Below are positions 1,802-47,154 of a stretch of DNA of 48,891 nt, piece by piece (within the stretch, counting starts at the first letter, position 1; the number at the start of each line of letters is the position of its first letter). The notes under the pieces were generated by a model, which was given only the letters and a program-made list of their open reading frames with translations, had not been told where the DNA came from and did not search any database. Both the position numbers and the translations under genes were made by a program. The DNA is from a virus: the IMG/VR virus record IMGVR_UViG_3300025112_000023, positions 1 through 48,891 of that record; one strand, 5' to 3'.

Positions 1802-2265
1802 TACTCAAATGACGTGTAGGATTTGCCATGGTATACAAGCGACTCCCTGCGGTTGTATTCGGGAGATACATAGGACACATGAATCCAGCCACTATTGGGA
1901 TCTATACCGTCGTAGAATTCTAGGATCAGCTGATCGAACTCCAGATTGTCTTTGATCCAGCGGGCAACCTCATCATTGGCTATGCCACCAATCTCAAAGT
2001 CTACCGCCCGACCTAAACAATGCTGTGACGAGGGCTTACTACCAATGGCCTTGTTTAAACTGGCTGAACGAAAGCCACTGCTGGGAGTGAAAGGCTTTCC
2101 AAACTGCATACGCACAGGTTCAAGAATAGCTCGCGCCAGCTCCACCATGCACTCTATCTCTATCGGGCCGGGAGTGTTGTCAATACCCTGCCGTATTGCT
2201 GTCTGTGAACGGCACATCTCTTTCAGGCTGAAGTGATCGCTAATCTTTTGGTTCATGTCTGTCAT
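1801..2265 (-). CDS. Endolysin, peptidase M15 family
   Basis: This 154-residue protein is a peptidase M15A-type (PF08291-like) zinc peptidase, expected to cut peptide cross-links of the cell wall and so act as the phage endolysin. The zinc ligands are His82 and Asp89 in SSQHCLGRAVDFE and His129 in GWIHVSY. The preceding block TPSSGFRSASLNKAIG is also typical of the family. No signal peptide is present, so release needs a holin; the next gene downstream is a candidate. The ATG overlaps the stop of the 2823-residue gene as ATGA, and another Met lies at residue 4. A copy of the GTTTAAAC palindrome (2053-2060) lies within the coding sequence. Confidence 0.9.
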   Translation of the reverse strand: MTDMNQKISDHFSLKEMCRSQTAIRQGIDNTPGPIEIECMVELARAILEPVRMQFGKPFTPSSGFRSASLNKAIGSKPSSQHCLGRAVDFEIGGIANDEVARWIKDNLEFDQLILEFYDGIDPNSGWIHVSYVSPEYNRRESLVYHGKSYTSFE

Positions 2266-5200
2266 TTTTTAGGCTTTATTTTGCGATAGGCGTCTGTGGA
2301 TATATCAATATCCCTTAGTTGCTGCGCTAAGTTCGCTTCTTTTTGTTTAATATATTTATGATAACTTGCCACCCTTACTCTTCTTTCCTCCGGTGAAAGG
2401 CGCTGGTTCTTTAACATCTTTTTATAGGCCGCCTCGACCTTAGCTAAATCCTGCTTCGCGTAATGCACAACCTCCCGAGCCTTATTGGGATCAATGTTGT
2501 AAAGGTTAAGGCCAGCAAATCGCAAAGCGGCTTGTGTCACCGTGTCACCCTCGTAGCCGCGTGCCGTACGCTTACCATTAACGGCATCAAACATGCGCGT
2601 AGTCGCCCCATAATCCGTATGCAGAAACCCCGGTAACATGAATTGATTTGCTGTCCAAAAGATAGCGTCGGGTATTTGCCCGCGTCCTCTCAACATATTT
2701 TCTTCTGCTCCGGCAACAAAGAGCGGTTCAGCAGTATCAACAATGGGCCTGCCCGTAAAGGGGTCATGGTTTGTCAGCCCCATTCCAAGAGTAATACCGG
2801 GACCACCAAACAATCCTACCGTCTGAGCAATGGACTGTAGGCTTGGCTTGTCTGCTTGCGCGACACCTGTTGCTGCCTTGCCAATCTTTAATAACTCATT
2901 ACCTATCTCCAAGAATGCGCCCCATGGGGTGATATAGCCTAGATTAATAAATTGTACACGCCCCTTGGAATCACGTATGGGAACAGGCAGAGAATTACCC
3001 GGTTGTCTGGCAAACTCAGGCAGCATCTTTTTAACAGCCTCGTAGTCATCGTCACCAATATCAAAAGCCTGTTTAAACATTTCCGGTAGAGCTAGAGACA
3101 AGGCAACATAAGGCGCAAAGCGCATCGGATTGTTCAGCGCTGTCTTTATCAGTAACGGAGCTACCTTGTAGTAAAACGTGAGAAACGGTATACCAAATGG
3201 AGACGTTCGTGTTTGACGTACCAAAGGATGTACGAGGGAGTAATCGAACAACGTTTCATTGGCAATAAGAAAGGCTTCATCGGCACTCTGACCACGACGT
3301 TCCATGACATCAATAGCCATAGCTGTCTTGCCTACTACCTCCACTGTCTGATAAAGATTGGAGGCGTTTTGTGCGAGCTTGTCCCATGTATTGAACTTAA
3401 ACCAGTTGAACACACCAGCATCTTTCATTCCGACGCCACCAAGGAATTGCAGCATGTCCTCGCTCCATCGAAACAGTTCTGCCTCGGTGAAGGATGCTTC
3501 TGATACGCCCCGGTCAAGCATTTCCCTGTAATGCAGAGAATTTTCCATGTCACCGCGTTTGAAAGCACGAACCTCCTGTATAGCTTTATACATGTTGGGC
3601 AGGATGCTTCGCATAGGCATGCCGTTCAGGTGCATCAGAATCATATTGGAGAAGGTATTACGAGCAACGGTTGGTGGATTTAATGGAACCTTCAGTGTCT
3701 TCCAGATAGCCGTAGCTTGGCGACCCAGCTTCATGCCTTTAACGGCGGCGTTATCACCCCAACCCACGTAACTAACACCAGTAATAACGTCATCGAAAAT
3801 TGATCTATGCACTGCCATACCCGCAAGCATGCCGTACTGTTTACCATTGGGAACCCGTTTAAACTCTGCTTTCCCATCCGAACCTAAAACCTTTACGCCA
3901 TCCGTGTTGATGGCCATAACCTTGGCCGGATCTATAGCTCCAGTCTTAGGGTCTTTAATAGACTGAAGATTGTTTTCTTCTGCATATTTCGCCACAACGG
4001 GCGCGGCTGTTGCGCGCATTCTTTCTGCTGTAGCACGTTGTCTTGCCGCCTTATTCGGATCGCCCGCCTCTACATATCTGGCAATCTGATCCATAGTATC
4101 TGCATGGCGGTAGAGCCATAAGGCAGAAACATTCTGAGTCGTACCATTACCGTTGTCCCATAGAACCTGAAGCGCATCTTTAGGAATAGCCCAGTTGCGG
4201 TTCTGTGATACTGCGTCAAAAAATTCCATCATGGCTAAGTCGCGCAAAGGACGTTGAATCGACTGCGACACAAGAAATTCAGGAGCCAGCTCTGCTATAT
4301 CTCCAAGCACCTCTCTAGCCTCTTCGTTCATTTCCTTACGTCTGTTGAGGTAGCTGTACTTTGCTCCCGCAGGATTTTGCATTACGTGCTGGATATACAG
4401 CCTTGGCAAATAAGATCGTCGTCGTTCATAGAATTTTTCAGCAGGAAGCAGCCCTCTCTCTACTAACTCTTCTCCAATATCTTCGATCATATTCTTGGCT
4501 CGCTCTGCCGCCTTCGCCACAGTTGGGTCGATAGCCTTTAGCTTGTCAAACAGCTGCTGCTCGCCTTCGTTCGGCCCCCTAGTTAAATAGTTATATAAAG
4601 CCTTGCGTAAGTTTTCCGAATCTCCTCTCGCCTTGGGATTTTTCTTATCAAGATATGGGGCTAGGTCATGATGAATTGTCTTCAGTGTCCGTTCAGTTCT
4701 ATTTATTAAGCCGAGAGATTTACCACGTAGAATCAGATACTCCGAAATCTGTGGTAACCCCTTGAGAGGATGAAGCAGAGTGCCATCTTTCATAGCTGCC
4801 AAACGCTTGAGCAGCCTGCTTGTAAAAGTATTACGTTCCGTGGTGCCTTCGGCTTGCGCCATAGCCATACGAAACGCCGGTACGGGATCATAGATGGAGT
4901 AGTTGCCTTCCAACCCTTGCATCTCTTCTGTAATAGGGAAGTAGCGCAAGGCATTACGCACATTGGATACAAGAATCTCGTCACCCTCACGCATGTCTTG
5001 AGGAATACGGTACGGCCCAACTGGTGCTTCCCCAGCCTCTACGGCAGCATACGCGGCAATATCAAGCTCGTCCCTTTGTTCCGCCGTAAGATCGGCTTGC
5101 AAAGCAGTCGGCTCCCCCGCTTCCAGTTTTCGCCGCTCCTCTGGAGTAAGCGCATAAAATGATGAAGGCGGCATCCTTCCAACATCTTCCTCCTTAACGA

Positions 5201-8200
5201 TCTGAAGCCCTTCAAGCTCCCCGGTTTCATCGCTTCTCTGTCCGAGCCATAACATTTGTTTGTCATCTTTATAAGAACGTTTATCAGCCCCCTTCAGATA
5301 ATCACTAAGACGTTCACGAAAAAGATTTGGGATTTGCCTATCATATTGGCCATGGCTTGCGTCAACAGGAATATCCACGCTGCCATCAGGCCGTATAGCT
5401 TTGCGTACACTATCGGTAAGAAGAGGGGAGACACGATTATAGTCACGTACACTATCATTAGCTCCGGACTCTAAATCTCTAGCAGTACCCTCCAACTCTT
5501 TCACCTTGTCTGAAATAAAACTCACCATATCTTCTGTGGTGAAAAAAGAGTCGCCGGTAAGCTCCTTATTAATCTCTATCTGATCCTGAACAAGAGCAGT
5601 AATATCCTTGCCTAGCCAATCCTCTAGCGCTAATGAAGAAGTGCCATAATCCGCATTGCCTGCTCCTGTAGCATCACCTAACTCACGATCTTTCCCAAAG
5701 AAATAACTTCCTCCTTTCTTTATTGGGCCGCTAGAAGTGGGGACTGTATATTCGACCTTGTAAGCGTTAACCATAGAAGGATGGTTGTCGGCAAGATATT
5801 CAGATAGCGCAATAGTCAACGCTCCTTTGATGCCGGTACCGCCAGCCTCTGCTACATCCTTAGTGGCTTCATCAAGGTAAGTGTACGCTCTGTTCGGCTC
5901 CACACGACGAAGAAAATGTGCAAAGTCTTTGTATTCCAGTCGGCGTCGAGTGACTGGGGAGGAGAGCTTTGGATGCAAAATACCCTCCATTCTCGGCCAC
6001 AAATCCATCAAGGGTATTTGAATCGGCCCGGTAACAACCTCGTCACCGTAATACTTTTCCATTAACTGAGGGTTGAAATCTAAATTCAAATACAAGTCTT
6101 CAGAACTTGTGACATCTTCTGTTGGCAAAGATATCTCCATACCACTAATATCCTGAAGAAGAACAATCTCTTCTGCCGACAATCCGGCAATATGATTCTT
6201 GAATGAATGCCGATAGCGTTCCATCTGTAATTCGCTGTTAGCAATCGCAATACCGTCATAGCCTCCGTTGCCCGCCATACGAACAATGTGTCCAACTGCA
6301 AGGTTGGTCCATTCAGCCGTCTTCTTGAAGGGAGCGTCCGGAACCACCGGCCCATAAACTTCCTTTTCGTACCTCGGAAGATTGGGGCTACTGCGTATTA
6401 CATTCTTCTCAGCGCGACTGAGGGCTTCAAAATCTTTGTCATAAATATCCTTAGCTGCCGCCTTCATCATTTCATCACGAGCCTTCTGATGAAGATCAGA
6501 CTGTATCTCCTCGACAATCAGAATCTTTTTCCCGTCTTCTGTCATGAGGTCAGTTAACCGCATGAAGACGATGACATTGTTAACATCCTGAAAATGATCG
6601 CCGTTCCAAAGAAGCTCTCCTTTTTGCCCCTTTTTAATAGCGCCGGGGAGTGCCGGTGCACTCAATAAAACCTCACGATAATTATTATCCTGATAGCCTC
6701 GATGACCAAAAAGCGTAAATGCAGGGTAAGCCTCTGGCATATAGGAACGTTCGTCGCCAAGATCATCACGCTCGCTATTTTCAAATGATTCCATATCCTG
6801 TCTGGCTTCATTCGTTTTATCCATGTAATCCATTATCTGTGGCGACATCCCCGCCCCCGACAATTCAAATTCATCTAGCCCAAAAGACCCAGACAACTGA
6901 CCGATCTTGCTAAGGCTCATGTTATTTTCGGGATTGCTGAGATAGTCAACGATTTCTTTAGTAGTGACTTCGGATTTAAGTATGTCCTCATTCGTAGTGC
7001 CGTATTTACGGAGGAGAGCTTTTAAATCTGGAGTGACTAAATCCTGCCAACTACCCGTAACACCGATGGTATGCACGGCAGGCCGAGCTATAGAGGCTAG
7101 GGCCACACTAGGATTCTCTAAGACAATATAACGAGCAACAGTTGATTCCATTGCAACCACTCGATCACGGAGTATTTGCAATTGCACCTGCCCGTCGTTG
7201 TTATAACGGGCATCCATGGGATCACCATAGACAATAGTCTCCAACAACATTTCATTATTAGAAACGTACTGCTCTATTTGTGTTTTTGTAACCTGATCAT
7301 CAGGATTGAATCGATTAAGGAAATCCAGTAAACGAGAAGACTCAACCTCTGCCTTTCGTACTGACCACTCCTTGTCTTTAATTTTGAACTTGGCCTTCTG
7401 AGGATCAGAAAATATGGCAATCCACTCAGAAGCCTTCGCGGTATCTTTGGCTGTTGTCTTCAAATACTCCTTAACACCAGATAAAACATAGGGCTGCTGA
7501 CTCCGGCGAGCTGTCGGGCTGCCGTTCCTGACCATTGCCAATGCAGTATTCTTTTGGTCAAACCCTGTAGGATCAGTGATAGTACGCCGCGTCTGTGCCG
7601 CTATCTGACCGCTGCGTATCTGGTCTAATACATCCTCTAGCCTTTGGCCTTCGATTCTTGGCCCAGTAAATAAATCCTTAATCTGTTTAAACAGCTGATA
7701 GAGACGATCAAGTACGCCTCTCAACGGTGCCGTAAACTCGCTTGGTGCCTTGCCGGTAAGGTCTAGGGTTCGGTTGTATAGGCCAGAAGCATAAGCAAGC
7801 AGCTCACCTATTTCTCCTTCAGCATCTTCAGGAATAGCACGTTCATATAAGCCCGGACCTACATTGGGTTGCTTCTCTAACTCTTTAAAATGCCGACGTA
7901 CAATCTTCCGCAAACGCTCCGTGTTATCGCGTATCGTTTTCTCTTGTTGTCGTGTGAAGAAACGTGTGTCTCTTCCCCATAGATAGTGAGTGGCTTCATG
8001 GTACGCCCGATTCTGTGGATCTAGGTGCCCATCTTGTAACGATACAGCCACAACATTTTGTGCTTGCAGCCCTAACTGCGGTGTATTCGTAGTAGGATCG
8101 ACCACTATATTAGCCACCGTCGCTTGGGCTTCAGGTCCAGCAATGCGGTGAATGATGCCCATGACCTCCTTGACAACTTCCGCATTCATAGTTCCTACAG

Positions 8201-10733
8201 GTACCCTTGGAACGCTAATAGCTCCACCAGAACCGGGAACATCAACTAGCTCAATATCATCTAGTTTGGCCACAGGAGTACGTCGTGCATCCCTTCTTGC
8301 ACCCGCTATCTGATCATCTGGAATATTGTATTTTCTCGATAACGTTTCGAGGGCTTCGTTAACTTGAGTGTTTGCAGCCTGCTCCTCACCAACAGGACTA
8401 ACCTCAACATCTTCGACTATATTTCCAGACATGTCGGTTACTGTGAAAGCAACGACACCCGATTCCGCACCTGTAGTCATTGCAAGATTGTGCTCCCCTT
8501 TTATGGCCGCCACTTGCTCCATGGATGCGAGCAACGTCTCTCGCTGAGTCCCCGTCATATCCTTTAATAACGAGTCGGGGTTTCCAGTTGTCTGTCCAAT
8601 AAGCTCTTTTAGTTTTCTTTCCTTAATGCCTAGTGTTTTCTGTTTGTCTTTTATCGCCTTTTCGGAAAGGCCGATCTTGTTTTGCTCGACGAATTCTCGA
8701 AACGACGGTATCTGATAAGGATCCCAGCTATTAGGCTCACCACCATGCTCCTCCTGTTGTGCCTTGGCATCTTCTCTTGCCTCTTCTTGAACTCGGGCTG
8801 CATAATTCTTCGATAAACTCTCGTATTCTTCTACCGTGATATTTAAACCGGCGGCTGATCTTTTCTGATCTTCAGCCGAAGGGTTAGGTCCACCCTTCCT
8901 ACCTTTTCTGTAGGCAATATCGCTGTCTGGATCAGGAACAGACAGGCTCCCCCGTGGGCCATAGGTGGTGGTGTAGACTTGAGTCCCGGGAGTATCTTCT
9001 TCTACTATCTGCTCTTCGGTCGTCCGACGACCAGCACGTTCAATAATTCTCTCAGTGCCTGTTAAATTAGGATCAACAGCGCCCCCAACACCTTCTTCAG
9101 ATTCAAGGTCTTCAAGCCCTGTCTCCTTACCAGCGTCTTCAGCAACAACATCTGATATTTGTTGTGGTTGTGATATGTCTCGTTCACTGGCGATGCCACG
9201 ACGCTGAAACTCTGCATGAATAGCCCGCATCGTGTAGTTATCAACTGGCGTGAGAACAGCGCCCTCTTTATTTATTCTCTTCTGTAACTTCTCGCGCTCC
9301 ACCGCAAGCTGTGCCGTGGAGAAATCGCCCAGCTCTCGCTTTGCAGGTTTGCCATCTTCGCCCACTATCGGTATGGAGTAACGAGAGCTAAGTAGTTCCT
9401 CGTCGGAATAAAATGAGTAGCCCTCAATGCCAACATGCGGTTCTCTGGGAACATCTACTATTTCTGGCTGGCCATCTTTTTCGATAGCCATTTGGACAAC
9501 GCCCCACGTGGGATCACCAATCAGCTTCCCTTGATATTCCTCACCGTCAGGGCCATATACAGCCCTTGGTTCTTCTAATGTTTCTGGAGATACGGGATCG
9601 AGAGGAGGGGTTTGAAGATGTTCTTCTCTAAGCTCGCCTTCACTTCTTGGTTTATCCGGCATACGTCCGCGATTGCGGAACATCAAGCTGAATATCGTAC
9701 CGGCCCCAGAGCCATACCCGAAATCAGATAAAGCGCTTTCACCCAATGGCCTGTCTGGGTCATATAATGTCTTGGCTGCGAGTTCCTGCATGATCCCCGC
9801 CGCCGCCTCTTGTGCACCCTCAAGGCCACCAGAAGTAAGATGTCCGACCATTCTTTTGACAAGGCTGCCGGTATCAAAGCCCTTTGGCAATCCTCTTAAA
9901 ATAATCTCAATAGGCACAAGCTCTGTAAAACCAATGCCGACCCCGGCTAATGCGCTTAATGCGCGTTTGCCCTTGGTATAATCACCACCAGCTTTTTCAT
10001 ACGCCTCCAGCATCTGGTTGGCTTCGCCTGCACCGGCAGCACCGGCAGCCGTCCACTTGAGGGCGCTCAACCCCTTAGCTAAATTCAGAGTATTTTTTGC
10101 AGCAGCGGCCATGGCTGCACCCTCTGCGCCTCCCAGCATAGCAGCCCGCCCTGCCATAGCAGCCCCTCTCCCGGCTACTCCAGCCTGTCCCAGACCGGGA
10201 ATGGCAAATAAAATCATGCTGCCAAGAGCTTGGGAAAGTTTACCCACCATGCCTTTCTCATGGCCGACCCATTCACCGGCATCGCGCAACCATTGGAAAG
10301 CCTCGCCTTGCTGCGCATCAATCGCATCCTCAAAGCCAGCGGTATCGAGCGCTATATCAGCGAGCGAAAATAAACCCTCGCCCATACTGAGAGCCGTTTG
10401 TACAGCACCACGAGTAATACCACGAGGGATTGCCCACAGCGCTGAGTCTGTGTCTTCTTCTTCTTCTGTTGGAATAAAAGATTGATCAGCTCGCGCACTG
10501 ATAATGCCTCGTGGAGAGAGGACTCCCTGCTCCTCTATAAGCGCAGAAGGAGCTTCTGGCTCCGCTTCTGCCTCTAGCCCAATAGCTTGTCCAACTAGAC
10601 TCCCCGGACGAATCGTTCGCCGTGTAGCAAAAGGATGTGGTTCTTGCTCGGTAAGGAAAGCCTCAGATAGAAGCTCTACCGGATCTACATTTTGTTTTTC
10701 AGCGAGCGCAATAAGCTCTTCAATTGTTGCCAT
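2262..10733 (-). CDS. Giant polyvalent virion protein with metallopeptidase-like motif
   Basis: This 2823-residue protein is the largest in the window and fits the large polyvalent proteins that phages carry in the virion and eject with DNA. By eye it has: an acidic N-terminus; Ala/Gly-rich hydrophobic helices at about residues 120-290; a long Glu-rich region; a zinc-peptidase-like HEATH motif (HExxH) near residue 910; a conserved block around 1400-1500 (ILIVEEIQSDLHQ, then PDAPFKKT and GGYDGIAIANSELQMERY) that recurs in such phage proteins; and a C-terminal helical domain from about 2350 (LNPPTVARNTFSNMILMHLN) with hydrophobic segments. It sits between internal virion proteins and the endolysin. 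Four GTTTAAAC copies lie in this part of the genome, three within this gene. No catalytic activity is proven by the motif alone. Confidence 0.75.
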   Translation of the reverse strand: MATIEELIALAEKQNVDPVELLSEAFLTEQEPHPFATRRTIRPGSLVGQAIGLEAEAEPEAPSALIEEQGVLSPRGIISARADQSFIPTEEEEDTDSALWAIPRGITRGAVQTALSMGEGLFSLADIALDTAGFEDAIDAQQGEAFQWLRDAGEWVGHEKGMVGKLSQALGSMILFAIPGLGQAGVAGRGAAMAGRAAMLGGAEGAAMAAAAKNTLNLAKGLSALKWTAAGAAGAGEANQMLEAYEKAGGDYTKGKRALSALAGVGIGFTELVPIEIILRGLPKGFDTGSLVKRMVGHLTSGGLEGAQEAAAGIMQELAAKTLYDPDRPLGESALSDFGYGSGAGTIFSLMFRNRGRMPDKPRSEGELREEHLQTPPLDPVSPETLEEPRAVYGPDGEEYQGKLIGDPTWGVVQMAIEKDGQPEIVDVPREPHVGIEGYSFYSDEELLSSRYSIPIVGEDGKPAKRELGDFSTAQLAVEREKLQKRINKEGAVLTPVDNYTMRAIHAEFQRRGIASERDISQPQQISDVVAEDAGKETGLEDLESEEGVGGAVDPNLTGTERIIERAGRRTTEEQIVEEDTPGTQVYTTTYGPRGSLSVPDPDSDIAYRKGRKGGPNPSAEDQKRSAAGLNITVEEYESLSKNYAARVQEEAREDAKAQQEEHGGEPNSWDPYQIPSFREFVEQNKIGLSEKAIKDKQKTLGIKERKLKELIGQTTGNPDSLLKDMTGTQRETLLASMEQVAAIKGEHNLAMTTGAESGVVAFTVTDMSGNIVEDVEVSPVGEEQAANTQVNEALETLSRKYNIPDDQIAGARRDARRTPVAKLDDIELVDVPGSGGAISVPRVPVGTMNAEVVKEVMGIIHRIAGPEAQATVANIVVDPTTNTPQLGLQAQNVVAVSLQDGHLDPQNRAYHEATHYLWGRDTRFFTRQQEKTIRDNTERLRKIVRRHFKELEKQPNVGPGLYERAIPEDAEGEIGELLAYASGLYNRTLDLTGKAPSEFTAPLRGVLDRLYQLFKQIKDLFTGPRIEGQRLEDVLDQIRSGQIAAQTRRTITDPTGFDQKNTALAMVRNGSPTARRSQQPYVLSGVKEYLKTTAKDTAKASEWIAIFSDPQKAKFKIKDKEWSVRKAEVESSRLLDFLNRFNPDDQVTKTQIEQYVSNNEMLLETIVYGDPMDARYNNDGQVQLQILRDRVVAMESTVARYIVLENPSVALASIARPAVHTIGVTGSWQDLVTPDLKALLRKYGTTNEDILKSEVTTKEIVDYLSNPENNMSLSKIGQLSGSFGLDEFELSGAGMSPQIMDYMDKTNEARQDMESFENSERDDLGDERSYMPEAYPAFTLFGHRGYQDNNYREVLLSAPALPGAIKKGQKGELLWNGDHFQDVNNVIVFMRLTDLMTEDGKKILIVEEIQSDLHQKARDEMMKAAAKDIYDKDFEALSRAEKNVIRSSPNLPRYEKEVYGPVVPDAPFKKTAEWTNLAVGHIVRMAGNGGYDGIAIANSELQMERYRHSFKNHIAGLSAEEIVLLQDISGMEISLPTEDVTSSEDLYLNLDFNPQLMEKYYGDEVVTGPIQIPLMDLWPRMEGILHPKLSSPVTRRRLEYKDFAHFLRRVEPNRAYTYLDEATKDVAEAGGTGIKGALTIALSEYLADNHPSMVNAYKVEYTVPTSSGPIKKGGSYFFGKDRELGDATGAGNADYGTSSLALEDWLGKDITALVQDQIEINKELTGDSFFTTEDMVSFISDKVKELEGTARDLESGANDSVRDYNRVSPLLTDSVRKAIRPDGSVDIPVDASHGQYDRQIPNLFRERLSDYLKGADKRSYKDDKQMLWLGQRSDETGELEGLQIVKEEDVGRMPPSSFYALTPEERRKLEAGEPTALQADLTAEQRDELDIAAYAAVEAGEAPVGPYRIPQDMREGDEILVSNVRNALRYFPITEEMQGLEGNYSIYDPVPAFRMAMAQAEGTTERNTFTSRLLKRLAAMKDGTLLHPLKGLPQISEYLILRGKSLGLINRTERTLKTIHHDLAPYLDKKNPKARGDSENLRKALYNYLTRGPNEGEQQLFDKLKAIDPTVAKAAERAKNMIEDIGEELVERGLLPAEKFYERRRSYLPRLYIQHVMQNPAGAKYSYLNRRKEMNEEAREVLGDIAELAPEFLVSQSIQRPLRDLAMMEFFDAVSQNRNWAIPKDALQVLWDNGNGTTQNVSALWLYRHADTMDQIARYVEAGDPNKAARQRATAERMRATAAPVVAKYAEENNLQSIKDPKTGAIDPAKVMAINTDGVKVLGSDGKAEFKRVPNGKQYGMLAGMAVHRSIFDDVITGVSYVGWGDNAAVKGMKLGRQATAIWKTLKVPLNPPTVARNTFSNMILMHLNGMPMRSILPNMYKAIQEVRAFKRGDMENSLHYREMLDRGVSEASFTEAELFRWSEDMLQFLGGVGMKDAGVFNWFKFNTWDKLAQNASNLYQTVEVVGKTAMAIDVMERRGQSADEAFLIANETLFDYSLVHPLVRQTRTSPFGIPFLTFYYKVAPLLIKTALNNPMRFAPYVALSLALPEMFKQAFDIGDDDYEAVKKMLPEFARQPGNSLPVPIRDSKGRVQFINLGYITPWGAFLEIGNELLKIGKAATGVAQADKPSLQSIAQTVGLFGGPGITLGMGLTNHDPFTGRPIVDTAEPLFVAGAEENMLRGRGQIPDAIFWTANQFMLPGFLHTDYGATTRMFDAVNGKRTARGYEGDTVTQAALRFAGLNLYNIDPNKAREVVHYAKQDLAKVEAAYKKMLKNQRLSPEERRVRVASYHKYIKQKEANLAQQLRDIDISTDAYRKIKPKK

Positions 10734-22691: not shown

Positions 22692-22950
22692 TAGCACTCT
22701 CCTCTATCTGTAACAGAACAACGCATTGCTGAAACGCAAGCTGGGCAGTCTCAATCTTATTTGCCAACTCATTAAGTTGAGCCTGAGAAACATTAATTTC
22801 CTGCTGTAACTGCGCCTGCTTGGCCTGTAGGCGCTCTATATTCGGAGAAACCTCAGCCGCATCTGGAAATGGGATCTCAACCACTTCGGGGAGAGGAAGC
22901 TCTATCTCCTCTAACTGTTCTTCTTCTTTAATGAGGTCTTCTTCTGCCAT
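22681..22950 (-). CDS. Small acidic coiled-coil protein
   Basis: This is 89 residues from the ATG at 22950, with a purine-rich GGAAGAAG upstream. An in-frame upstream start would add 21 residues lying over the oxygenase gene. The N-terminal half is very acidic with a Glu/Pro/Leu pattern (EEEQLEEIELPLPEVVEIPF). The second half is a clear heptad-type coiled coil (IERLQAKQAQLQQEINVSQ and onward). It overlaps the oxygenase gene by 23 bases and the next gene by 11 bases. A structural spacer or tail-assembly role would fit, but nothing specific can be assigned. Confidence 0.65.
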   Translation of the reverse strand: MAEEDLIKEEEQLEEIELPLPEVVEIPFPDAAEVSPNIERLQAKQAQLQQEINVSQAQLNELANKIETAQLAFQQCVVLLQIEESANGS

Positions 22951-23629
22951 CTTCTTCCACCTTCCATACATTAAGATTTGCCGCCACAGTACGGCGTTCG
23001 CCTTCACCCTCAAATGGATACACCATATGCTGTAGCCAACTTGGGAACATTAAAAACTTACCTACTTCGGGCTTTATTACAAAGCTTTGAGGAGGTCGTA
23101 GTCGCTCTACATCAATCAATGAATTAATGCCGTAGTTAAACGCAAGACAACCGTCGCTATTCCCTGAAGCACCATACAGGCTATACTCAGGACTTCCTGC
23201 TGTTGGTTGATCTAGTATCTGCGGAGGCACCTTAGTCCACGATGTACAGGAAATTCCCATAATCGTCTTAGTGCCATGATCGTGGATGGGGTTATAGTCC
23301 CGCTCATAGCTATGTACGGACCATAATTCATCGATACCAACCTGACGATCACCAAGATCATTGCCAGTATTTTTAAAATTTTTCAAATATTCAGTCGCAA
23401 GCATTCCAGTCATCTGGCAATAGTCCGTTAGCCTTGGATCGTTATGATCCATAGTTAATTGCTGCCCATGCCCAATCTGCCCTACTAAGGTTCCAGCATG
23501 GGAGATGCGGTCCTCCTGCTCCATCAGATCATCCAAATATGTATTCAGCCCCGATACTATTGCGTCAGGTATCTGTGCTTCCAGCAGGAAAACCGCCGGG
23601 AGCGTATGTACCTGATATTCCTGTTCCAT
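22928..23629 (-). CDS. 2OG-Fe(II) oxygenase
   Basis: This 233-residue protein fits the phage 2-oxoglutarate/Fe(II) oxygenases of PF13759 type. The proximal metal site is HDH at residues 116-118 in NPIHDHGTKTIMGIS, the distal His is 201 in FPSWLQHMVYPFEG, and the 2OG-binding Arg is 212 or 213 in ERRTVAANLNVW. Such genes are common in marine phages next to tail-fibre genes, with substrates mostly unproven; hydroxylation of a virion or host protein is one idea. Here it lies between the fibre with its accessory protein and the tail-stabilisation gene. Its ATG shares a base with the upstream stop (TAATG). Confidence 0.8.
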   Translation of the reverse strand: MEQEYQVHTLPAVFLLEAQIPDAIVSGLNTYLDDLMEQEDRISHAGTLVGQIGHGQQLTMDHNDPRLTDYCQMTGMLATEYLKNFKNTGNDLGDRQVGIDELWSVHSYERDYNPIHDHGTKTIMGISCTSWTKVPPQILDQPTAGSPEYSLYGASGNSDGCLAFNYGINSLIDVERLRPPQSFVIKPEVGKFLMFPSWLQHMVYPFEGEGERRTVAANLNVWKVEEDGRRRPH

Positions 23630-43947: not shown

Positions 43948-44394
43948 TCAAGCGCTTGGAGGCTCATTTGTGCCAACAATCGCGTTTAAACGCTCCAACA
44001 CGTCTTCAGGATCGTCGATGCGCTCACTCACTACGTGAGATTGCTCCACATATAGCCTCGATACCTTGCCCGCATAATGCGCGGCCTGTATTGCGGCGCT
44101 GAACTGTCCCGCATCCTCTGCTGACTTGCTGAGTTCTTCCATCCTCGCCACGTGATGCGCCAAAGAAACGCGCTCATCACGCTCATTCTCGCTTACGCAG
44201 CGTGCAATCTCGCTCTGTACCTTCGGTAACTTATAAAGCTTATATCCAACATCGGCTGCATTCCCACCAGCCTTGTAACCCGCTCGCACTGCTGCATCTC
44301 TCTTCGAGAGTCCTTCGGCGCAATACCGCGCAAATAGGCGCTGCTTGACCGTAAGACCATCTCGACCACTCGGGATATCAACGACCTTTCCCAC
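43948..44394 (-). CDS. terS: Terminase small subunit
   Basis: This 148-residue protein is a small terminase of Terminase_2 type (PF03592-like): VKQRLFARYCAEGLSKRDAA, VRAGYKAGGNAADVGYKLY, then VQSEIARCVSENERDERVSL. The N-terminal helix-turn-helix would bind the packaging site, and the rest is the helical oligomerisation part. The start is GTG at 44394, with CGGAG eight bases upstream; the GTTTAAAC palindrome (44396-44403) lies between that site and the start. It is the first gene of the leftward late region. A GTTTAAAC copy also falls within the gene 33 bases before the stop. Confidence 0.88.
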   Translation of the reverse strand: MGKVVDIPSGRDGLTVKQRLFARYCAEGLSKRDAAVRAGYKAGGNAADVGYKLYKLPKVQSEIARCVSENERDERVSLAHHVARMEELSKSAEDAGQFSAAIQAAHYAGKVSRLYVEQSHVVSERIDDPEDVLERLNAIVGTNEPPSA

Positions 44395-44460: not shown

Positions 44461-44489
44461 TTGACATGTTTAAACGAGTCAGGCAATGT
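44461..44489 (+). promoter_or_regulatory. Candidate promoter for the rightward genes
   Basis: TTGACA is followed after 17 bases by CAATGT, a weak -10. A GTTTAAAC copy (44468-44475) lies in the spacer, so a protein bound there would block polymerase or alternatively recruit it. The distance to the ATG at 44520 is about 30 bases. Confidence 0.4.
44468..44475. repeat. GTTTAAAC in rightward promoter spacer
   Basis: Lies one base after the TTGACA box in the divergent control region, a position where a bound protein would affect transcription. Confidence 0.8.
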
Positions 44490-44497
44490 TGAGACGA

Positions 44498-44513
44498 ATC
44501 GCAACAAACGGAG
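44498..44513 (+). promoter_or_regulatory. Conserved leader copy 1
   Basis: ATCGCAACAAACGGAG, six bases before the ATG of the SprT-like gene; the end is the ribosome site. Confidence 0.7.
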
Positions 44514-44519
44514 CACGAA

Positions 44520-45134
44520 ATGACCGATACCAACTACGTTGATAGAGAGACATGGCTAAACGCTGCGGCTATCCTGCTGCAAGCAGAAGTCTTTACACTC
44601 GCACAGATCCCTGCCGAGGCATGGGAGACGAAACAGTACCGCATCACTTGCGGTTTCCCTTTGGGATATCGCGGAAGTAGAACAGGTAAGGTGACCCTTG
44701 GTCAGGCGTTTGATCCCAGTATAAGCGCTGATGGTACATACGAAGTATGTATTAACCCCATCTTGGACGAACCCATAAGGGTTCTGGATGTGCTTGCTCA
44801 TGAATTGGTTCATGTGTATGCAGGGATTGCCTGTGGTCACCGAGGTGACTTTAAGACCATCGCTAGAGGGATTGGGCTTACCGGGCCGCTTACAGCGACT
44901 GTCGCCAGTAGTGGACTTGAGCAGACCCTTAAGGGTATTGCCGAGCAACTAGGTAGCTACCCACATGCAGCGATCAATCCGTCGCTTCGTAAGAAGCAAG
45001 GCACCAGACTGCTGAAACTTCAGTGCAGTGAATGCGGGTTCATCGCTCGTATCACTGCTAAATGGGCACATCGTATAACGGCTTTTAGCCGCTGCCCGGT
45101 GTGTGACGAAATCACGACTCTCGAAGTCGTTTAA
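44520..45134 (+). CDS. SprT-like zinc metalloprotease with zinc ribbon
   Basis: This 204-residue protein has the motif HELVHVYAGIACGH near residues 94-107, the HExxH plus downstream His of gluzincin-like SprT proteins. A C-terminal zinc ribbon follows: CSECGF (about 168) and CPVC (about 192). SprT/Spartan relatives cut proteins on DNA or have regulatory roles; in phages the target is unknown. It is the first gene of the rightward region, with the leader ATCGCAACAAACGGAG seven bases before the ATG. The stop codon is the TAA of a GTTTAAAC palindrome, so the protein ends in Val. It forms a likely operon with the AAA ATPase 23 bases downstream. Confidence 0.72.
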   Translation: MTDTNYVDRETWLNAAAILLQAEVFTLAQIPAEAWETKQYRITCGFPLGYRGSRTGKVTLGQAFDPSISADGTYEVCINPILDEPIRVLDVLAHELVHVYAGIACGHRGDFKTIARGIGLTGPLTATVASSGLEQTLKGIAEQLGSYPHAAINPSLRKKQGTRLLKLQCSECGFIARITAKWAHRITAFSRCPVCDEITTLEVV

Positions 45135-45136
45135 AC
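45129..45136. repeat. GTTTAAAC supplying a stop codon, then leader
   Basis: Ends the SprT-like gene as GTT TAA AC and runs directly into the leader ATCGCAACAAGGAG of the ATPase gene. Confidence 0.85.
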
Positions 45137-45150
45137 ATCGCAACAAGGAG
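45137..45150 (+). promoter_or_regulatory. Conserved leader copy 2
   Basis: ATCGCAACAAGGAG before the ATPase gene, adjoining a GTTTAAAC copy. Confidence 0.75.
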
Positions 45151-45157
45151 CAAACTT

Positions 45158-46252
45158 ATGTTTGACCATTCTACCAAAATCAAGCCTGAAACGGCAGCAT
45201 ATATGGCTAAAAAGTTAGCGTCGATTACATCCGTTAACGCGGACCTCGATGCTAGCCAGCGCGCCATACTCAAGCGGCTGGCAGTTGCCTACGGCAAACC
45301 AGTCAACAGCCCCATAAGGGAACTGATCAGCCTATGGCTGCATGGACCGGACGCTGGCAGTGCGAACGTTGGCGAAGCCATCAGCTCAGCCATCAATGAC
45401 GCCCTACGGGATATCAACGGCATGAACGAGACACAGATCAAGGATCTGGTACGAAAAGAAGCCGAGCGTATCGTCAGAGACGAGTTCACACAGCCACCAC
45501 GGGAGATAGTCCTACGGACTGGCAGCGGCAGCAAAACACTGCCTGCTGAGACACGACACGAAGTGTTCGAGGACGTGCTGATGTTCATCGCGCAGCGTGA
45601 GAGTGTCTACCTTGTAGGTCCAGCCGGATCAGGTAAGACGACGCTTGCAAAGCAAGCAGCCGACGCACTTGAGCTACCATTCTACTCGACGGGGGCGCTA
45701 GTCATGAAGCATGAGCTTGAAGGGTTCATTGATCCGCATGGCAACTACGTTGAGACCGAGTTTTACAAAGCGTTTAAACATGGCGGCGTATTTCTCTTCG
45801 ATGAGATCGACGGCTCGTCCCCGGCGGCAGTGCTGGCGTTCAACGGCCACATGGCCAACGGCATCGCATCATTCCCCTGCGGCATGGTCGAGCGTCACCC
45901 AGACTTCGTTGTGATCGCAGCAGCGAACACATACGGGAATGGTGCAGATAGACAGTACGTCGGACGTAATCAACTAGATGCCGCCAGCCTAGATCGATTC
46001 GCGTTTCTATCCATGAACTACGATGAGGTGTTCGAAACAGACATATGTGCAGACTCAGATTGGGCCTCGCATGTCCAGCGCATCAGGCAAACGACCAACG
46101 AATTAAAAATTCGTCACATCGTCTCGCCTCGCGCAAGCATCAAGGGTGCTCGCATGCTGGCCGCTGGCATGGATCAGGAAAAGGTTGAGCAAGCGTACAT
46201 CTGGAAGGGACTCGAAGAGTCCGACATCGAGAAAATAAAAGCGGGATGTTAA
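45158..46252 (+). CDS. MoxR/CobS-type AAA ATPase
   Basis: This 364-residue protein carries a AAA+ ATPase of the MoxR/CbbQ/CobS type. Walker A is GPAGSGKTT near residue 154, Walker B is VFLFDEID near 210, sensor 1 is IAAANTYG near 253 and the arginine region is LDRFAF near 278. The region before residue 135 is a mostly helical domain without a recognised family. MoxR-type ATPases act with VWA-domain partners in assembling or activating other proteins. The gene follows the SprT-like gene with its own leader, and its stop lies just upstream of the next gene; an earlier ATG for that gene would overlap it. Confidence 0.85.
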   Translation: MFDHSTKIKPETAAYMAKKLASITSVNADLDASQRAILKRLAVAYGKPVNSPIRELISLWLHGPDAGSANVGEAISSAINDALRDINGMNETQIKDLVRKEAERIVRDEFTQPPREIVLRTGSGSKTLPAETRHEVFEDVLMFIAQRESVYLVGPAGSGKTTLAKQAADALELPFYSTGALVMKHELEGFIDPHGNYVETEFYKAFKHGGVFLFDEIDGSSPAAVLAFNGHMANGIASFPCGMVERHPDFVVIAAANTYGNGADRQYVGRNQLDAASLDRFAFLSMNYDEVFETDICADSDWASHVQRIRQTTNELKIRHIVSPRASIKGARMLAAGMDQEKVEQAYIWKGLEESDIEKIKAGC

Positions 46253-46278
46253 CAGGGGTTGACACGCCGTTTCGATTC

Positions 46279-46293
46279 ATCGCAACATATAGG
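46279..46293 (+). promoter_or_regulatory. Conserved leader copy 3 (diverged)
   Basis: ATCGCAACATATAGG before the chosen ATG at 46297. It decides the start of that gene against the ATG at 46246. Confidence 0.5.
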
Positions 46294-46296
46294 CAA

Positions 46297-47154
46297 ATGA
46301 GGGCAGACATGTACACATACAAACGAGATTGGGACGAGTTCCTTGCCGACATCGAAAGCCGAGAGATCGGTAAGGCATGGACATCACCGTCAAGCATGGA
46401 CAGCGACGGGTATGAATTCACCGGAACGCACACATGGGATGAAGCGCACACACTACTGAAGCATGGCTGGCGTGAGGGTCGGTCAAAACTGGCCGAGGCG
46501 ACCGAGTTTGCTAAAGCAACCACACATCAGGGTACTGCCGAGGCATGGCAGCATGCCCCGGCTGGAGCGTTCCCGAATGTACCAGCATACTGCGCTGGCA
46601 TAGCCGAGTGCATGATGACGCCGCCCGGTGAGGAGCAGCGCTCATCGATGCCTATCGTGACCATTGCGGTCAACATTGGAGCCGCTGCATTTACCCCAAC
46701 CAACATGATGATCAATCGAGGTGCGGCCATTGTCGCTTTAATCGACAGCATCGAGGCGCAAGGTCAGCGGGTCGAGTTGATCTGCTGCACCCGTACCCAG
46801 TTATCTAATAACGACGGACACCTAGTGATGCACGTCACAGTGAAACGTGCCGAAGAGCACGTCAATCTGGATCGCATCGCCTTTGCCATGGCACACCCCA
46901 GTATGCTCCGTCGCATGAAGTTCAGGGTTCAGGAGTTCACCTTGCCGAAGGTCGAGCACGGCTACGGCATCTCAAGAGATTTTGAAGAAGAGGATTTCGA
47001 TCTTGGCACGATGTATGTGCCACACTTCCCACACAGTCGCAGTAAACAGCGCGACATGTACGGGACTGAAGAGCGAGCAGTGCAGACGATGGCCGAGATG
47101 TGGCAGAGTGCCACCACTGCATGGCAAGCCAATCAACTAGATGAAGCTGTTTAA
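46297..47154 (+). CDS. AAA-partner protein of DUF7192 type
   Basis: This is 285 residues from the ATG at 46297, chosen because the recurring leader (ATCGCAACATATAGG) stands just before it. An in-frame ATG at 46246 would overlap the ATPase stop, and an ATG at 46309 has GAGG before it. The sequence contains YKRDWDEFLADIES, EAHTLLKHGWREGR, a Pro-rich AYCAGIAECMMTPPG and a beta-rich VTIAVNIGAAAFTPTNMMIN. This matches proteins I associate with DUF7192, which in phages commonly follow a MoxR/CobS-like ATPase and may be VWA-like. The stop codon is the TAA within a GTTTAAAC copy, so the protein ends in Val. Confidence 0.62.
   Translation: MRADMYTYKRDWDEFLADIESREIGKAWTSPSSMDSDGYEFTGTHTWDEAHTLLKHGWREGRSKLAEATEFAKATTHQGTAEAWQHAPAGAFPNVPAYCAGIAECMMTPPGEEQRSSMPIVTIAVNIGAAAFTPTNMMINRGAAIVALIDSIEAQGQRVELICCTRTQLSNNDGHLVMHVTVKRAEEHVNLDRIAFAMAHPSMLRRMKFRVQEFTLPKVEHGYGISRDFEEEDFDLGTMYVPHFPHSRSKQRDMYGTEERAVQTMAEMWQSATTAWQANQLDEAV

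Follow-up and report, generated by a model that had tools for sequence, protein, structure and literature searches.

The window analysed here, a viral DNA of 48,891 nucleotides (IMG/VR record IMGVR_UViG_3300025112_000023), carries three open reading frames on the plus strand in its ORF listing: gene 1 at 44520-45134 (204 aa), gene 2 at 45158-46252 (364 aa) and gene 3 at 46246-47154 (302 aa). The original prediction had placed three genes with joined leaders here, and its coordinates proved exact, apart from a likelier later start of gene 3. The leader box TCGCAACA occurs seven times on the plus strand (44499, 45138, 46280, 47160, 47395, 47651 and 48243) and has no copy on the minus strand; six of the seven read CGCAACAA, followed by GGAG and ATG. 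The box TCGCAACAA..CGGAG lies ahead of gene 1 (44499-44519, +), and like boxes precede gene 2 (45138-45157, +), gene 3 and the downstream genes, which agrees with the joined leaders. The gene 3 box, a TCGCAACAT variant at 46280-46308 (+), falls within the annotated 5' end of the gene. Given this box, and given where the protein begins in relatives (MRAPMYTY... in L002), gene 3 more likely begins at 46297 or 46309 than at the annotated 46246. One sigma-70 promoter was found in the region against 4.2 expected from shuffling, and therefore we claim no promoter.

Gene 1 (+) encodes a SprT-like zinc metalloprotease. It matches phrog_6361 at 3.7e-36, and it has the HELVH active-site motif (44799-44813, +) with a distal His (GH) in the alignment and a C-terminal CxxC...CxxC zinc ribbon (45024-45104, +), in keeping with the zinc protease with zinc ribbon first proposed. 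Against the Pfam SprT-like family (PF10263) it scored 16.3 bits (E=0.0093), under the 25.6-bit gathering cut-off, which the SprTs of L002, L028, L033, L045 and L103 likewise missed; phmmer with this protein returned nothing from PDB sequences. Foldseek with the AF2 model (pLDDT 93.1) placed SPRTN (6mdw) first (prob 0.99, E 1.6e-3), although by VIA the match to 6mdw (Z 7.3) is tied with selecase and abylysin. Model residues 160-204 align weakly with zinc-ribbon segments of MCM4 and rubredoxin (Z 4.3-4.7). The protein resembles SPRTN/SprT-like proteases in its HExxH zincin fold, as modelled, its zinc ribbon and its top-ranked PDB match (6mdw), but differs in belonging to phrog_6361, in lying under the Pfam cut-off and in standing in an operon with an ATPase. 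In addition, three members of the phage cassette family are catalytically broken: of 58 unique cassette SprTs, 55 keep HExxH and 54 have all four positions, including the downstream His, intact, whereas L045, L047/L048 and L049 have lost HExxH residues. Since these three have lost catalytic residues, proteolysis may not be the role of every cassette SprT.

Gene 2 (+) encodes the AAA+ ATPase of MoxR/CobS kind that had been expected. It exceeds the Pfam AAA_5 cut-off (39.1 against 22 bits) and matches phrog_249, labelled 'porphyrin biosynthesis', at 5.9e-56; residues 144-288 match CobS in the PDB weakly (9ujv, E=1.6e-4). Sequence and alignment locate Walker A (GPAGSGKTT, 45617-45643, +) and Walker B (LFDEID, 45794-45811, +), and the sensor 1 Asn and Arg finger are also found in the AAA_5 domain. 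Residues G154, G157, G159, K160, D215, E216, N257 and R280 are invariant in all eight alignment rows. No NCBIfam model reached its cut-off for this protein among the best 25 of 41 matches. The homology with the CobS of cobaltochelatase is distant, and unlike CobS the window ATPase has no CobS equivalog score and keeps other partners.

Gene 3, which encodes 281 aa when read from 46309 to 47154 (+), belongs to Pfam family DUF7192 (7.2e-38, 131 bits, cut-off 27). Its AF2 model (pLDDT 92.6, pTM 0.87) is predicted to be a VWA fold, and the top four PDB matches in Foldseek were NorD VWA domains from NorQ-NorD (NorD, E=7.3e-5). VIA gave Z 9.0 against 9qhd (8.6 A, 184 aligned) and Z 8.9 against the Rea1 MIDAS domain 6qt8 (4.2 A, 166 aligned), values near 9 that the tool itself rates as modest; for VWA domains with no AAA+ ring as partner, Z was at most 6.4. 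The VWA-like core (residues 112-281; 46642-47151, +) has a conserved K179 and an HPSMLRR motif, and reads NxGxA in place of the MIDAS DxSxS. Of 59 DUF7192 sequences, 11 have D at the first MIDAS position and 24 have N. As modelled, then, DUF7192 is a VWA-fold protein without an intact MIDAS. Viral matches ranking next after DUF7192 members included CobT-like/VWFA phage proteins, and the DUF7192 profile found nothing credible among PDB sequences (best E 0.36).

The loss of the MIDAS need not prevent pairing with an ATPase. The NorD VWA finger inserts into the NorQ pore, and NorD MIDAS mutants still bind NorQ, according to passages of PMC13036017 and PMC9976466; a MIDAS-less DUF7192 could therefore still be a MoxR partner. 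The fold shared with the NorD VWA and the Rea1 MIDAS domain fits the original proposal that gene 3 encodes such a partner, and DUF7192 is in all likelihood the VWA adaptor of the ATPase. NorQ-NorD, a MoxR ATPase with a VWA partner, provides the nearest fold, and RavA-ViaA and CbbQ-CbbO are further systems of this composition (described in part of PMC9976466). In contrast to the window cassette, the NorQ-NorD type is cellular, keeps its MIDAS, serves metal insertion or activation and includes no protease.

We then compared two sets of viral loci, the best 80 of 158 confirmed ATPase loci and the best 80 of 411 SprT loci; with only the best 80 of each list used, the frequencies lean towards near relatives. 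In the ATPase set 79 loci were counted, L066 being left out because an overlapping ORF had been picked instead; 72 had at least 800 nt downstream and 75 at least 900 nt upstream. Within these best 80 of 158, DUF7192 occurred at all 72 loci with room downstream, and within 1.5 kb downstream of the ATPase in 70 of them (52 of 54 after dereplication). SprT was present at 27 of 75, where it either adjoined the ATPase or came immediately after DUF7192 in every case, and absent from the other 48. Because most ATPase-DUF7192 loci carry no SprT, the pair would work without it. In the reverse direction, 58 of the best 80 of 411 SprT loci had at least 2.2 kb of room (22 with less were set aside), and ATPase and DUF7192 came next in 50 of these 58. 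The co-occurrence and order of the genes recur in other phages. What had been described as one cassette holds for the nearly constant ATPase-DUF7192 pair and for the place of SprT beside it, but SprT itself is an optional third member.

The three genes are a recurrent, co-inherited operon rather than chance neighbours. Across 41 dereplicated cassettes, protein distances correlated with r of 0.84, 0.80 and 0.92 (0 of 2000 shuffles each), and gene order was the same in most of them. The close marine relatives L002-L005 (76-80% aa; L005 stops within the ATPase gene) retain the order, as do dozens of distant relatives, and a DNA-level search for the cassette among phages gave a single 90-base match. 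When 48 records were searched whole, 11 had SprT, solely in the cassette. We consider it very probable that the three genes form one functional unit, although linkage by itself is no proof of a physical complex. Exceptions occur: L129 has a SprT 58% identical to that of the window, yet the 1 kb that follows it contains no ATPase. Nine isolate records searched whole contained no SprT, apart from two matches in S-SSM7 that are riddled with stops and were discounted as chance, and none of eight SprT isolates searched whole gave ATPase or DUF7192, the positive control being silent in part of these. We also considered a zincin at every SprT-less locus, and rejected it: HExxH lies near the ATPase in eight genes over 68 loci, of which only Tunturi_4 gp84 is peptidase-like (Peptidase_M78, E=0.03, below cut-off). 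Scanning viral contigs with the protein from Tunturi_4 yielded one further locus.

No ORF matched two of the three HMMs (SprT, ATPase, DUF7192), so the cassette is not a fused protein but three separate genes. A triad of the same kind, with the protease fused to the VWA part, exists in two further phage lineages. Phage N4 encodes an AAA_5-like ATPase (gp24), related to the window type (hhalign 94%), and gp25, in which a DUF2201_N metallopeptidase with HExxH is joined to a DUF2201 VWA-like part. The window cassette, with its protease and VWA genes separate, falls outside this DUF2201/N4 gp25 type of metallopeptidase-VWA fusion. Homology between the parts was rejected, since hhalign gave 3% for SprT against DUF2201_N and 0.3% for DUF7192 against gp25; consequently, the likeness is one of architecture. 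In T4-like cyanophages the 'peptidase' adjoining 'cobS' combines HEVGH with DWSGSM/TDG in all three examined. There, as in group 2.2 jumbo phages (passages of PMC7824862), an AAA_5 ATPase adjoins one fused HExxH-VWA protein with a canonical MIDAS, whereas the window has a SprT-family protease and a separate, MIDAS-degenerate DUF7192. The related jumbo-phage fusion is thus already published in that source; we describe the separate-gene SprT-ATPase-DUF7192 form.

The window cassette adjoins terminase genes. It diverges from the late genes, and small genes of unknown function lie on the same strand. In relatives, primase/helicase, exonuclease and methyltransferase genes lie downstream, the ATPase-DUF7192 pair of R22Y adjoins a primase, and the cyanophage peptidase-cobS pair sits between gp46 and gp45. 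The divergence from the late genes and the replication genes downstream in relatives are consistent with early or middle expression. Lone phage SprTs stand among genes for polymerase, SSB, RecA, exonuclease, helicase or DNA-binding proteins in six of seven annotated records, and when 22 records were searched for DNA polymerase A, replication genes could be placed in only four. Among the isolates, the unannotated Epa5 and MT835474 were left out of the neighbourhood counts. The passages searched in Listeria and Kayvirus transcriptome papers hold nothing about a cassette-type ATPase.

In our model the ATPase would assemble into an AAA+ ring of the MoxR type, on which DUF7192, as a VWA-fold adaptor, would dock and hand the motor's force to a target, by analogy with NorD. 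The SprT-like protein would be recruited as the effector and use its zinc ribbon in engaging a DNA-bound protein; where HExxH is intact, as in the window, it would cut the target once the ring loosens or exposes it. Most probably, the machine would serve to clear or destroy proteins on DNA while the phage genome is being replicated or the host taken over. We place the replication phase in this model because cassette-type genes lie with replication genes, and we give the whole machine, acting on DNA-bound proteins in that phase, about an even chance. Coupling of proteolysis to remodelling seems somewhat more probable than not, and that the targets are DNA-bound proteins is an evenly balanced guess.

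Of the other explanations, an unlikely one is a virion-assembly chaperone, in which the ATPase-VWA pair would build parts of the tail or head, with the protease trimming structural proteins. This role was proposed for the pair of MoxR and metallopeptidase-vWA in group 2.2 jumbo phages, for which the MoxR-vWA system of Acidianus two-tailed virus serves as precedent (passages of PMC7824862). The adjacent terminase genes would suit it, as would the ATPase of Kayvirus fRuSau02, which is listed among proteins detected in virions by mass spectrometry; the authors caution about carry-over, and DUF7192 does not figure in the passages (PMC5618024). However, the divergence from the late genes, the replication-type genes downstream in relatives and the R22Y and cyanophage versions among replication genes all speak against assembly.

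The reading raised by the original prediction, a device dedicated to takeover or anti-defence that would pull out and degrade a host protein, is quite improbable. The cassette does open a divergent unit of small genes, patchy phage SprT proteins have been suggested to target host proteins (in part of PMC7824862), and the mechanism overlaps with that of the machine we prefer. Nevertheless, PADLOC gave only weak matches (ATPase to IetA at 3.3e-6, gene 3 weakly to Cas7, SprT none), and DUF7192 is so widespread in phages that a housekeeping role would suit it equally. The chance is slim that only ATPase and DUF7192 belong to one module, SprT being a common neighbour that does separate work in DNA metabolism: the SprTs without the pair in many phages (none detected in the eight SprT isolates, given the partly silent control) and the pairs without SprT point that way, but the 11 SprTs all beside the pair, the kept order and distance correlation, and the fused triads elsewhere do not. 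Finally, a B12 cofactor or metal chelatase gene, with CobS as an auxiliary metabolic gene, is extremely unlikely and was rejected: despite the PHROG label, the weak 9ujv match and passages that term phage CobS and CobT B12 genes (PMC11705849, PMC11288001), the ATPase reaches no NCBIfam cut-off among the best 25 of 41 matches, its partner is a DUF7192 with degenerate MIDAS, the cassette adds a protease, and R22Y, named as a CobS carrier, has an adjoining DUF7192.

Returning to the remodelling machine, these three neighbouring genes in many water-dwelling phages look like one such device, and some phage genes described under 'vitamin B12' appear to encode the motors of related machines. Tentatively, and with slightly more doubt than confidence, we hypothesize that phages brought motor, VWA adaptor and zinc protease together on at least three occasions (in cyanophages, in N4 and as SprT-ATPase-DUF7192), that DUF7192 represents a new class of MoxR adaptor without MIDAS, and that B12-labelled phage 'cobS' would be the motor of a machine stripping or degrading DNA proteins for genome copying. 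Were proteolysis coupled to the ring, phages would have an ATP-dependent protease that differs from ClpP, Lon and FtsH. The machine reading would replace a metabolic label (CobS, porphyrin biosynthesis), and coliphage N4 offers a place for a genetic test of the triad. DUF7192, a Pfam domain of unknown function, gains a predicted fold and a probable partner; tblastn with it reached 320 phage records.

The original prediction grouped three plus-strand genes into one cassette, encoding a SprT-like protease (gene 1, 44520-45134), a MoxR/CobS-type AAA+ ATPase (gene 2, 45158-46252) and a DUF7192 protein (gene 3, 46246-47154). We confirmed that the three stand together in the window, and other viral loci upheld the grouping. 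A search with an ATPase alignment confirmed 158 loci, of which the best 80 were kept; 79 of these had a called ATPase ORF, 72 had at least 800 nt downstream and 75 at least 900 nt upstream. DUF7192 was present in all 72 of these best-80 loci with room for it, within 1.5 kb downstream in 70 and upstream of the ATPase in the two exceptions (L041 and L077); dereplication of the same best 80 left it downstream in 52 of 54. Among ATPase matches from a genome collection, five of seven carried the pair (L096-L100), the remaining two matches being weak. In some phages more than one DUF7192 gene lies close to a single ATPase (locus L011, 3313-4197 and 7378-8256; L078; L093; L068).

SprT is an optional member of the cassette and is independent elsewhere. 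It was found in 27 of the 75 ATPase loci that have 900 nt or more of upstream sequence (16/50 dereplicated; best 80 of 158). It directly precedes the ATPase except in L033 and L035, where it follows DUF7192. When 48 virus records were searched in full, 11 contained SprT, each as a single copy and always within the cassette. Conversely, a search with a SprT alignment, from which the best 80 of 411 loci were used, left 58 in which 2.2 kb of sequence was available, and ATPase plus DUF7192 adjoined SprT in 50; the other eight hold distant SprTs. Locus L129, which carries a close SprT, has no ATPase within the next 1 kb. The ATPase and DUF7192 genes also adjoin or lie near each other in Kayvirus Stab21, Listeria AG20, Tunturi_4, a Manatee Spring podovirus, mycobacteriophage Silverleaf and Rhizobium phage RHph_X2_24, and whole-record searches of these phages found no SprT. 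Downstream of the Tunturi_4 pair lies gp84 (L009, 7628-8119), a zincin-like protein with HELGH. SprT itself is carried by 163 phage records, and neither ATPase nor DUF7192 was detected in the eight of them searched whole. In six of seven annotated records examined, SprT sits amid polymerase, clamp-loader, SSB, RecA, exonuclease, DNA-binding or helicase genes, Marky being the exception.

Across 41 dereplicated cassettes of 76, with mean identities of 49% (SprT), 46% (ATPase) and 34% (DUF7192), the distance matrices of the three proteins correlate at 0.84, 0.80 and 0.92, values reached in 0 of 2000 shuffles. Linked genes are expected to share their history, so this correlation shows co-inheritance, not contact.

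Gene 3 belongs to DUF7192 (Pfam), and the suggestion that it is a MoxR partner gained support from its predicted fold. The model, built from an alignment of 59 DUF7192 proteins (pLDDT 92.6, pTM 0.87), was compared with 350,542 PDB chains by Foldseek, and its top four matches were NorD VWA domains (7.3e-5 to 5.2e-3), all from structures of NorD bound to the MoxR ATPase NorQ. A second structural alignment ranked NorD first at Z 9.0, then the Rea1/midasin MIDAS domain at 8.9, compared with Z of at most 6.4 for the listed VWA domains that do not partner an AAA+ ring; in a viral model library, the nearest models outside DUF7192 include CobT-like and VWFA phage proteins. These matches support DUF7192 as a predicted VWA-fold partner of a MoxR ATPase. 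Its metal site is degenerate: the window has NxGxA where DxSxS is expected, and the first position is D in 11 and N in 24 of the 59 proteins. Conserved in its stead are K179 (58/59), R201 (58), P197 (52), R202 (51) and H196 (48). A MIDAS-free MoxR partner is plausible, since in the available text of PMC9976466 changes to the NorD MIDAS spare NorQ binding while abolishing target activation, and in that of PMC13036017 a hairpin finger of the NorD VWA domain inserts into the ring pore. Such a DUF7192 would require other means of holding its target.

Gene 1 is a SprT-like zincin. It matches phrog_6361, and its alignment displays HELVH, a distal His and a four-Cys ribbon; its Pfam score falls below the family cut-off. 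The predicted model (pLDDT 93.1) has as its top PDB match 6mdw, described as 'protease dependent DPC repair', which we take to be human SPRTN; the structural score of 7.3 is tied with selecase and abylysin (Z 7.2 each). HExxH is kept in 55 of 58 unique cassette SprTs and in 21/21 from loci without an ATPase ORF. The three others have broken catalytic residues, HQ..R (L045, 3769-4389), QQ..Y (L047/L048, 3892-4572) and QQ..H (L049, 3670-4284), and retain most ribbon cysteines; judging from these residues, the subunit must presumably act there without cutting.

Gene 2 is an AAA_5 ATPase (Pfam) of phrog_249, whose PHROG label is porphyrin biosynthesis, and phage CobS is described as a B12 gene in the available portions of PMC11705849 and PMC11288001. 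The B12 label does not fit well, because in R22Y, the phage of PMC11705849, DUF7192 adjoins the ATPase.

In the window, minus-strand structural and packaging genes reach as far as the small terminase gene (43948-44394); the cassette opens the plus strand at 44520, and small unknown genes run from it to the right end. As the cassette diverges from the late genes, as the same strand in relatives runs on through small genes to primase/helicase, exonuclease and methyltransferase genes, and as the cyanophage and R22Y pairs lie in replication clusters, its position speaks for the replication phase and would argue against a purely structural role. We favor a mechanism in which the ATPase ring and its VWA adaptor, DUF7192, would loosen a DNA-bound protein, which SprT would then cut. 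The host-takeover or anti-defense use proposed originally is possible as a special case of this loosening and cutting.

Other phages carry similar triads. In coliphage N4, gp24 is an AAA_5-like ATPase just below the cut-off, the counterpart of the cassette ATPase, and gp25 fuses a DUF2201_N metallopeptidase to a DUF2201 VWA-like domain, functions encoded by separate genes in the window. The apparent resemblance is one of composition, since no sequence link ties SprT or DUF7192 to gp25. The latter (L187, 3165-4307, NC_008720) is annotated as an HNH endonuclease, its Pfam assignments being far above cut-off. In T4-like cyanophages the gene preceding cobS/CbbQ, between gp46 and gp45, is annotated merely as 'peptidase'; in the three phages examined (S-SSM7, L188; S-RIM44, L189; RB11-B, L190) it encodes HEVGH near the N-terminus and a canonical MIDAS (DWSGSM, TDG) in the C-terminal half, and Pfam gave no family for the one protein scanned. 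The available text of PMC7824862 reports a pair of this kind, MoxR with a metallopeptidase-vWA protein, from group 2.2 jumbo phages and proposes that it serves virion assembly. DUF2201 is named in the literature and DUF7192 in none of the papers found; titles and abstract openings among the matches listed for MoxR, VWA and SprT contained no SprT-MoxR-DUF7192 cassette.

The joined leaders noted originally correspond to a repeated translation leader, TCGCAACA / TCGCAACAA..GGAG..ATG, preceding plus-strand genes at 44499, 45138, 46280, 47160, 47395, 47651 and 48243; in the 48,891-base virus record the box TCGCAACA occurs seven times on the plus strand and never on the minus strand. Because the gene 3 box at 46280 lies past the annotated ATG (46246) and relatives begin there, its true start is probably 46297 or 46309.

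The window contains 21 copies of an 8-bp palindrome, GTTTAAAC, and 19-kb stretches from three relatives have 27, 22 and 24; no other 8-bp palindrome exceeds five copies there (loci concerned: the whole window, L183, L184, L185, L023, L150 and others). By the ORF set used, 10 of the window's 21 copies lie partly or wholly outside coding sequence, against only 4.6% non-coding bases. This distribution suggests a phage-wide operator or a recognition site of another kind. A copy at 44468 precedes the cassette, and others at 45129 and 47149 lie between cassette genes. The window's minus strand also encodes a 2OG-Fe(II) oxygenase (phrog_81, 22928-23629) amid structural genes, and a protein of 2823 aa that contains an endolysin-like stretch (phrog_7348, 2262-10733) adjoining other very large proteins.
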